Shown here piece after piece: positions 142 through 3,240 of a DNA stretch of 64,000 nucleotides (positions within the stretch are counted from its first letter, which is position 1; each line of letters begins with the position of its first letter). Source of the DNA: Rhizophagus irregularis. Lineage: Eukaryota > Glomeromycota > Glomeromycetes > Glomerales > Glomeraceae. The translations under genes and the position numbers were made by a program. The notes below the pieces were generated by a model. That model was given only the letters and a program-made list of their open reading frames with translations. It did no database searches and was not told the DNA's origin. The DNA is taken from the NCBI RefSeq assembly GCF_026210795.1, contig NC_089438.1:310001-374000 (forward strand). Reading direction: 5' to 3'.

Positions 142-3100
142 ATGCTTAGTAAAAGAATTATCAAAGTATGAGCGTTTATTGTTATTCATTTAGTTTCATT
201 TTACGTAGATGAAATTTTTTTTTTCAGTAGCGACTAATTAATTCACTCTCATTGCTATTTTATATTTGTATATCACATACTAGGAAACTGAGAGAATATA
301 TTCGAACCCGCCACCATATATTAGTAGTGTTTGTTTGGTTCAAGGCAATTTACGTCATTTTGAAGCAAAAATAACGGGTCCTGTATGTATTTTTAACAGC
401 TTATGTTCAAATATAAATGCGGCTAATTTTAATCCAACTATTTTTCTAAATTATTAGCCTGACACTCCATATGAGGGTGGTGTATTTCTCCTTGATATAA
501 ATATTCCAACAGATTATCCAATGTGTCCACCAATGGTATGTTTTATTTATACAGTTTTGTAAATTTCAATAATATATTTATTCATGTATATTATATTAGG
601 TAAAATTTATAACAAAAATCTACCATCCAAATATCGATAGAAATGGATTTATATGCTTGGATATTTTAATGGACAATTGGCGTCCTTACTTGAATATTGC
701 GGGTGGTAATTTTAGAAAATTTAATATAACAAATGTTTTACATTATAATAAACATTAATCTTTAATTAAATCTTTTATTTTATCAAGCACTCTTGTCAAT
801 TGTTTCATTTTTGACTGATCCAAATCCAGGTATACTACTATTTTATATTATCATCCATATTTATATTTGCTTGATACCGTCAATTAAAAATAATTTTAAC
901 AATAAACAAGTTAAAAATAAATGGGAGTTCTTACTTTTGAATTAATCTTTAATATTAATTTAAATATAATGATTTTATTAAGTTTATAATTTTGTATAAA
1001 CGTTTTTAAATGCTTTTCAATCAGATTGTGTAATAGATGTAAGTCCAGAAATATCACGTTTATACAAGGATGATTATGATCGCTATGAAGCTACTGTTAG
1101 GGAATGGACTCGTAAATATGCTATGGGTGAGTATTTAAAAGGGTTGACATTCTTAATGTTTGTTTTTTTATGATTTTTATTATTTTGTTCAATTTTTAAC
1201 ATCCTTTTCCAAATAAGGTGATTATTCAAGTATTTTTGATGAAGAACAGCTTCTTGATGCACTGTACAGTGTAGGTAATGCTGCCGATGAATGGATTTTG
1301 AAATATTGGAAAGGAGAAACCAAGGAAATAAATGGTACACTTTGCAAATTAATGGTTTGTATAGTGAAAGATTCTGATGATTCTCCTTGTGGCAAAACTT
1401 ATGTCATAAGTGATGAGCTAATTAAAAATGCAATAATTCATTTAATAAACTGTCACAACATCACAAAAGTAAGCAAGGCTTGTTTTTTAATAATTAATTG
1501 AATAATTGTTAATATAATATTAAATAATTTGTAATTTAAAATAAATTAATAATCACCAAATCTTCTTTCCATAGCCAAAAACTTTCAAAAAACAACAAGT
1601 ATTAGAACCAAACAAGCATCCTGAAGATAAACAAGAAAAATTATGGAAATTATTTACTGATTGGATAATAGATGATTCTCAATCTATTAACGCTATTACA
1701 AATCCAAGATTTAATCAATTTATTTATAATCTTGATCCTGCTTTTGTTATGCCATGTCAAGAAACTATAAATTCAATCGTTTATGAATCCTATAATTCTT
1801 CATTTTTACAACTTCAACAATTTATCAAAAATAATGCTACATCTATTTCTCTTGCAGTAGATATCTGGACAGTTAAAAATAGTCAAGGTTATTTAGGTAT
1901 AACATGCTCATTTTTGGATAAAAAATTTGAATTGCATGAAATTACTTTAGATATTGCTTATATCAAATATCCCTATACTTCAGAATATATATTGGATGCT
2001 TTTGAAGATATATTATCCAGATGGAAAATTCGTGATTTAATATTTACTATTACAACCACTAATAGAAGTAATATTAAAAAGGCAATTCTTGATATGGAAA
2101 ATGTAAATTGGTTAGGATGTACATCACATACGTTACAATTAATAATTGAAAAGTCAATTAAACCAGCTGAAGTATTAATAGCACGTGCTAAGTATTATGC
2201 AGATTGTTTAAAGCAAAATGAATTTCTTGAAGAGGATAATGAGAAAATTGTAAGTATATTAAGTAACATTTAAGTATTCTTATAATAATTTAAGAAATTG
2301 TATTAATAATTAAATATATATATTATAGAATTCTGCAGAACTTTTACAAACTGTTATGAACTTTCCAACTCAATGGGATTTTGAAAATCTTGCCAAAAAA
2401 GATTTAATAAAATCTGAAAAAATCAGGTTGACCCAAGATGAAGAGAAATTAATTCAGGAACTTAAATCAATTTTAGACCCATTTTCAGAAATTATTGAGC
2501 TTTTGAAAGGAAATTGTACTTATTCTTTAATTAGTCCTTTATTACTTGAGATTAAGAATAAATTTTATTCAGAAGATGTGAATACAGTGGAAATTAATTT
2601 TGAAGATGAAGGTCAAGAAGCGAAGGATTCTAATAAGAATAACTATAGAATTCAAATTAATGAACCTGTGGATTGTACTGGCCTTATTGATAAGATAAAG
2701 CTCAATCTTTCTGTTGCTATTGATCATTATTGGAAAGATTTATTAGATCCAAATCTGATTCTTTTTAGCATTTTAGATCCTAGAATAAAAAGATTATCCT
2801 TTATATCTACATCAAAAAGATATGAAGTTGAAAATTTATTACATGAAAAGTATAAAGAAATGAAATCAGTTACAGAAACCAAAACTAATCATATAAATGA
2901 AAATGAGCAAAAACAAAAGAGGACAAATTCAATCTTAGCTAGTTTAAAGAAATCATCATCTACAATACGTGCTGTTGAGGTTTCTGAATATTTACATTTG
3001 GAAGAAATTGATTTGGATAGCAACCCTTTTACATGGTGGAAAGAAAGAAAAGAAAAATTTCCTATTTTATACCATTTTGCTATAAAGTATTTATCTGTCT

Positions 3101-3240
3101 ATGCAACTTCTACTATTAATGAAAAATTGTTTTCTGATATAAATAATTCAATTTATAAAAATAATTCTGAATTATTTAAATATTTGATATTTTTAAAGCA
3201 AAATAATAAGAATCTAGAATCAATTAATAATAATGTTTGA
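142..3240 (+). CDS. UBE2D-type E2 ubiquitin-conjugating domain fused to BED/hAT transposase-derived protein
   Basis: Proposed exons are 142-165, 284-382, 458-535, 600-705, 788-829, 1025-1126, 1218-1468, 1575-2249 and 2329-3240. All have GT-AG borders and keep one frame, giving about 762 residues. Residues 1-147 form a full E2 fold: an MLSKRI start, [28 protein letters not shown] with the HPN motif and catalytic Cys, LTDPNP, and the UBE2D-type end EWTRKYAMG. There is no stop there. A phase-1 donor (ATGG|gtgagt) leads into a linker, then a BED-like zinc finger (about 1290-1465, C...PCG...HL..CH), then a hAT core with [15 protein letters not shown] and a C-terminal dimerisation segment ([17 protein letters not shown]). 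The second hAT catalytic Asp site reads TTTNRSN, so Asp is missing. An E2 would transfer ubiquitin from E1 to substrate or E3; the hAT part probably binds DNA or dimerises. Fusion is seen in sequence; function is inferred. Two adjacent genes remain possible if transcripts stop after exon 6. Confidence 0.72.

Follow-up and report, generated by a model that had tools for sequence, protein, structure and literature searches.

A ubiquitin-conjugating (E2) domain predicted to be joined to a hAT transposase-derived tail in a tandem gene family of Rhizophagus irregularis

The beginning of the window, by which we mean the whole stretch of 64,000 nucleotides analysed (positions 310001-374000 of contig C10, NC_089438.1, in a genome of 146.7 Mb and 32 contigs), raises the question of whether a ubiquitin-conjugating (E2) domain and the hAT transposase-derived sequence directly behind it belong to a single gene, and what the product of such a gene would do. 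An earlier note had read them as one gene, and had proposed that its E2 part could direct ubiquitin transfer to chromatin.

Structure of the window gene

Positions 142-3240 hold a single open frame of 762 amino acids (763 codons including the stop) in nine exons, and all eight introns have GT-AG borders (Table 1). The same exons were returned by spliced alignment of the window protein, a result that serves as a check on the script rather than as independent support. Residues 5-144 of the fusion protein match UQ_con (PF00179) with 134 bits (3e-39), and the top match of the E2 part among solved proteins is Ubc4 (2.9e-48); it retains Cys86, the HPN motif and the Asp of CLD. The tail matches the hAT dimerisation family Dimer_Tnp_hAT (PF05699) with 39 bits (7e-10, cut-off 21.4), in the same open frame as PF00179. 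A free relative from the same genome matches the Hermes transposase (8.4e-16), in an alignment that places the catalytic motifs: in the window the first Asp is retained (GAT 1860-1862), while the position of the second reads Thr (ACT 2058-2060). The nine GT-AG exons in one frame, the full UBE2D-like fold with its Cys and HPN, the hAT-derived tail and the phase-1 intron leading into it, all described in the earlier note, are borne out by these borders and matches.

Just 3' of the gene, at 3579-3966, lies a short element with 23-nt inverted ends that are 87% complementary and have 342 nt between them; its ends resemble what we take to be those of a non-autonomous hAT-type element.

Table 1. Positions of the features discussed (window coordinates unless a contig is named).
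Feature	Position	Strand	Basis or remark
Window gene, nine exons	142-165, 284-382, 458-535, 600-705, 788-829, 1025-1126, 1218-1468, 1575-2249, 2329-3240	+	
E2 domain, Ubc4/UBE2D-class, six coding exons	142..1126	+	PF00179, Ubc4 match, GT-AG borders
Catalytic cysteine codon (TGC), Cys86 of the fusion protein	654..656	+	aligned to Ubc4 Cys85
Phase-1 junction intron, E2 to tail	1127..1217	+	homologous in six loci
Exon with linker and BED-like finger (C,C,H,H)	1218..1468	+	zf-BED below cut-off; ligand columns invariant
hAT core, part 1	1575..2249	+	alignments to free relatives; Hermes alignment of a free relative
hAT core, part 2, and stop	2329..3240	+	catalytic Glu position retained (GAA 3121-3123)
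hAT dimerisation region	2986..3174	+	PF05699, residues 679-741; lowest omega, 0.28
L022, sister E2 gene, Cys to Asp	15276..16638	+	same phase-1 donor as the fused genes
5.4-kb hAT transposon (L024, L027, L044-L047)	C20 2473800-2484000; C22 3716000-3726100		terminal inverted repeats (TIRs) and target duplications

The fused family on contig C10

The tail was searched in six frames across the genome, with at least 109 exon-level matches (72 of 693 first-look candidates scored); a genome search with PF00179, for which all 103 candidates were scored, produced 81 such matches. Many of the PF00179 matches fall within the 181 kb-1.13 Mb part of C10, and 19 stretches of this contig were aligned individually to the window protein. 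Six loci, the window gene and L005-L009, have a tail directly behind the E2; all are on C10, where they span about 225 kb inside a tandem E2 cluster. The window gene, L006, L007 and L009 are open, with zero stops and zero frameshifts, and the last three, aligned to the window gene, show 9, 13 and 14 codon-length gaps, respectively. L005 is broken by one stop and one frameshift, and L008 by two frameshifts and one stop, together with a disrupted E2. The tail pieces of the five other loci have 58-70% identity to the window tail. The DNA alignments between L007 and L009 (3,176 columns), L006 and L007 (3,120) and L006 and L009 (2,932) each run as a single piece at 74-80% identity, so that E2 and tail were copied together.

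In control searches the tail was unmatched in 25 other E2 loci and the E2 was unmatched in seven free hAT loci. Exon 9 gave 14 pattern matches against viral contigs and 47 against prokaryote genomes, with no relatives in either set. All paralogues compared come from one genome. A tree of 13 tails unites all six fused ones in a single clade (100/100), next to which stand L024, L025 and L027 (91/93). With six loci, one tail clade and a common junction, the fused architecture and the hAT origin claimed in the earlier note hold, on more evidence than that note had.

One gene or two

In all six loci a phase-1 intron of about 79-98 nt starts just past the final KYA of the E2 (or its equivalent) and ends in a homologous acceptor, which reads AAATAAG/G or GAATAAG/G in five of the six and is different in L008 (the L006 donor was assigned by homology, the script having picked a later one). 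Mean pairwise identity is 0.84 in the first 8 columns of the intron, 0.62 inside it and 0.75 in the last 12, figures in which the L006 and L008 introns were cut with an error of one to a few bases. For comparison, five copies of another intron of this gene, the status of which is undisputed, give 0.85, 0.57 and 0.80 for the same three parts. With conserved ends and a looser inside, the junction intron resembles this one.

The loci could nevertheless hold two adjoining genes, one for an ordinary short E2 and one derived from a hAT element, with the intron that links them an accident of modelling. If left unspliced, the E2s of L006-L009 would stop a few residues on with a plain E2 end (e.g. KYADSKYS-stop), as free E2 copies do. 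The donor sequence GTRAGT is also found at the end of 6 of 18 free Ubc4-like copies (L010, L014, L016, L032, L035 and L036; the count covers copies with a printed end, L031 and L040 being left out as members of other E2 classes), and as the donor lies in codons that free E2s also carry, its conservation alone proves little. A tail of its own could start at the Met of 'MVC' in five of the six copies (Ile in L007), but before the finger there is no in-frame ATG downstream of the acceptor in any of the six loci, and a tail-frame stop codon abuts the acceptor in five of them. The acceptor, moreover, is conserved, introns this short would leave little space for a separate promoter and first exon, and the fused-tail clade has no E2-less member among the tails found. 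Two separate genes are on balance unlikely, and a single spliced gene is the reading retained below. The donor-like end codons of the free E2s suggest a possible route by which the capture of the tail arose.

Evidence of partner exchange at the junction intron

The sister gene L022 shares 81% identity with the fused L005 over a stretch that begins upstream of the gene and reaches into the junction intron, after which the two diverge; in L005 coordinates this stretch covers 172-1175, and the next L005 exon begins at 1194. The E2 of L022 leads, in the same phase, into two other exons; a kinase-like region starts with the second, and within this region the frame is broken after about 16638. A working E2-kinase fusion was considered for L022 and rejected, given the frame breaks and a Pkinase match of 13.2 bits on the readable part, below the cut-off of 31.7. 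The comparison of L005 with L022 is evidence of partner swapping at the junction intron, not of a working E2-kinase protein. If the joint is as proposed, the last codons of a gene can act as a splice donor and so provide it with new C-terminal partners.

The E2 head

The catalytic position of the fused E2s reads C in the window, D in L005, C in L006, S in L007 and G in L009, the cysteine being missing in three of the five readable copies; L008 reads C, which is unreliable because its exon is displaced. Across the 20 rows from C10 (window and L005-L023) there is C in 6 and another residue in 14, and in the 17 readable rows, without the badly aligned L008, L015 and L019, C is present in 5 and lost in 12. 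The Asn of HPN is retained in all 21 aligned rows. The window E2 is identical to Ubc4 at 79 of 133 positions, and replaces F62, K63, S94, A96 and D117 of Ubc4 with M, C, R, Y and I, the last of these comparisons hinging on the alignment around a two-residue insertion. We take these five positions to be linked to E3 docking or contact, or to catalysis. The E2 part evolves fast for an E2, and 71-109 differences are not unusual in the cluster.

An active E2 transferring ubiquitin at chromatin by means of its transposase-derived tail, as the earlier note had it, would agree with the window copy, which retains Cys86, HPN and the Asp of CLD, and with L006, which retains the Cys, F62 and P95. With the cysteine lost in L005, L007 and L009, however, just two of the six copies could act in this way, and the departures of the window from Ubc4 at the five positions above, whose importance we presume, speak against transfer even in the copy for which it was proposed. 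As an account of the family, ubiquitin transfer at chromatin is quite improbable.

In an E2 tree of 26 rows zero branches reach the starred level, and window/L005/L022 is the sole group containing a fused copy that has some support (90/99). With support this weak, the tree does not establish a single origin of the fused E2s.

The surrounding cluster is a tandem expansion of Ubc4-like E2s (L010-L023, at 181 kb-1.13 Mb of C10, together with L035, L036, L039 and L041) in which the catalytic Cys is mostly Ser, Gly or Asp and HPN is retained. L013 and L035 are identical to Ubc4 at 113 and 112 of 132 positions (about 85%), yet have Ser for Cys. L023, in the window from 62300 to 64000 and beyond, is a free E2 with Gly for Cys, the alignment of which took one frameshift. 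A second E2 inside the L018 stretch, outside the Cys count, has the C and carries HTN instead of HPN.

The transposase-derived tail

The position of the second catalytic Asp (Hermes D248) reads T, N, T, N, I and T in the window and L005-L009, respectively, so that a complete DDE triad is absent from all six fused tails; it is D in six of the seven free rows, L030 being the exception with N. All six fused tails retain the other two catalytic positions, the first Asp and the Glu, together with the four finger ligands and the dimerisation region. The numbering used (D180, D248 and E572) was counted on the Hermes alignment and agrees with what we take to be the catalytic residues of Hermes.

Of the BED finger named in the earlier note, the C,C,H,H ligands stand, their columns being invariant in 8 aligned rows, and the profile match does not: zf-BED gives 13.9 bits in the window exon (cut-off 20.6), and no match in the finger exon of L005, L006, L007 or L009. 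Among the free relatives L026 scores above the cut-off (22.4 bits) and L024 below it (15.3). A single-sequence fold of the finger exon, with a mean pLDDT of 45.7, was set aside. DNA binding is predicted here from a finger that scores below the zf-BED cut-off in every fused copy tested.

Two of the free hAT copies, on C20 and C22 (L024 and L027), are 98.9% identical across 5.4 kb. The element ends are TAGTGTTCCAATCCGT and TAGAGTTCCAATCCGT, exact at both ends of the C20 copy, and the two insertions are flanked by exact 8-bp target duplications, GATACAAC and AATTTAAA. Near-identical copies with TIRs and 8-bp duplications point to a hAT element that was recently mobile. The TIR of this mobile kin, sought with at most 3 mismatches and as the only kind of TIR, is absent in the five other fused loci, and near the window gene it has only one chance-level match, at 49367.

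That the fused genes are a transposon with E2 cargo, or its decaying remnant, and not a host gene would suit a hAT-derived tail with mobile free kin, two broken fused loci and the broken kinase-joined sister L022, but is the least likely of the readings considered, given the missing TIR (TIRs of other kinds could still be present), the confinement of all six loci to a tandem E2 cluster, within about 225 kb of a single contig, the second Asp gone in all six, and four copies free of stops and frameshifts, three of them with 9-14 codon-length gaps relative to the window.

Selection on the open copies

Nei-Gojobori omega was computed with bootstrap for the four open copies (window, L006, L007 and L009), with codons aligned to the window. 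It is 0.53 (0.38-0.71) for the E2, 0.42 (0.21-0.81) for the finger, 0.58 (0.47-0.70) for the core and 0.28 (0.16-0.47) for the dimerisation region, which is the most constrained part. For the whole tail it is 0.53 (0.44-0.64), indicating purifying selection on the captured part among the four open paralogues. The linker figures, 0.87 (0.38-2.61), give no sign of selection on the joint itself.

The layout is more than chance: it recurs at five further loci of the contig, and the window gene, L006, L007 and L009 are free of stops. When the window CDS was randomly mutated at 0.1 changes per site, a mean of 9.1 stops arose and none of 300 trials was stop-free, whereas at 0.02 per site 14% remain stop-free. 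Compared two by two, the tails have a dS of 0.22-0.52 across all 15 pairs.

Proposed origin and function

Taken together, the six loci, the shared junction, the tail clade, the lost Asp and the constrained dimerisation region look like a domesticated host-transposase fusion, made of an E2, a BED-like finger, a hAT core and a dimerisation region and duplicated as a unit, and we consider this explanation moderately probable. A captured hAT transposase would have become spliced to a tandemly duplicated Ubc4-class E2 gene, the phase-1 intron lying at the 3' end of the latter, and the resulting gene would afterwards have been duplicated whole, giving six loci of which four are open. The transposase part would have been domesticated, with the second Asp lost in all six and the finger and dimerisation region kept under purifying selection. 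E2 and tail are presumably joined in one transcript, and the protein would bind DNA as a dimer or multimer and present the E2 fold where it is bound. Ubiquitin transfer might be possible for the window copy and L006, whose fold has the cysteine, whereas the fold of L005, L007 and L009 could do no more than dock E3s, ubiquitin or the E1-E2 machinery. Such a protein would probably regulate or silence the sites to which it binds, its E2 fold serving as a scaffold or decoy; judged from the gene sequences, a DNA-bound, dimerising role of this kind would suit the family better than one in general ubiquitin transfer.

A more specific form of the domesticated fusion, to which we give little credence, would be a device for transposon defence. 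The combination of a dead core with a dimerisation region under the tightest constraint is what would be expected of such a dominant-negative or silencing factor. The dead hAT relative would pair with mobile hAT transposases or compete for their DNA, and its E2 or E2-like head would recruit the ubiquitin machinery; splicing or retention of one intron would set whether the head is joined or alone, and would allow the partner to change (hAT at six loci, kinase-like at a seventh).

Relation to known systems

No E2-hAT protein appeared among the literature matches listed, although supplements, including that of PMC10799480, may contain the pair. PMC10799480, a screen for fungal host-transposon fusions in 1,237 genomes, mentions neither Rhizophagus nor hAT in its main text. 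The host-transposase fusion genes SETMAR, CSB-PGBD3 and KRABINER, as treated in the accessible text of PMC12062965, are similar in that a host domain and a transposase-derived DNA-binding part share one gene; as in these, transposase function is lost here and the host domain is N-terminal. The E2-hAT genes differ from them in that the host domain is an E2, that nearly the whole hAT protein is kept and that they form a tandem family, and also in being known from gene sequence, with transcript and DNA binding predicted. If one message is made, E2 joins the list of host domains fused to captured transposases, and a ubiquitin-conjugating fold would be tied to a dimerising, probably DNA-binding protein.

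The same source describes the F-box A2 family of Caenorhabditis, with an F-box and a Tc1/mariner HTH. As in our family, a ubiquitin-system domain is combined with a transposase-derived part and is multicopy in one lineage (PMC12062965), but there an F-box, an E3 adaptor, accompanies an N-terminal HTH, whereas here an E2 accompanies a C-terminal whole hAT tail. RAG1, presented in the main text of PMC10799480 as a RING ubiquitin ligase with a Transib-like transposase, likewise has a ubiquitin-system domain preceding the transposase; it is a RING E3 and an active recombinase, whereas in the E2-hAT proteins the ubiquitin-system domain is an E2 and the second catalytic Asp of the tail is missing. 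Closer in host are the hAT-derived CGG-binding proteins of PMC8097297, one of which is from R. irregularis: a domesticated hAT DNA-binding part, predicted in our case, is found in the same fungus. They retain the finger and the Hermes DNA-binding domain, and the text of PMC8097297 available has no match for 'ubiquitin' or 'fusion'.

E2 variants without the cysteine (UEV), as described in the accessible part of PMC12513931, resemble the three of five readable fused copies, and the many free copies, in which the nucleophile is missing. The E2s of the cluster differ in being Ubc4-like with HPN retained, and the window copy has the cysteine. The four open paralogues, with C, C, S and G at their active sites, provide a natural test of catalysis in the fusion.
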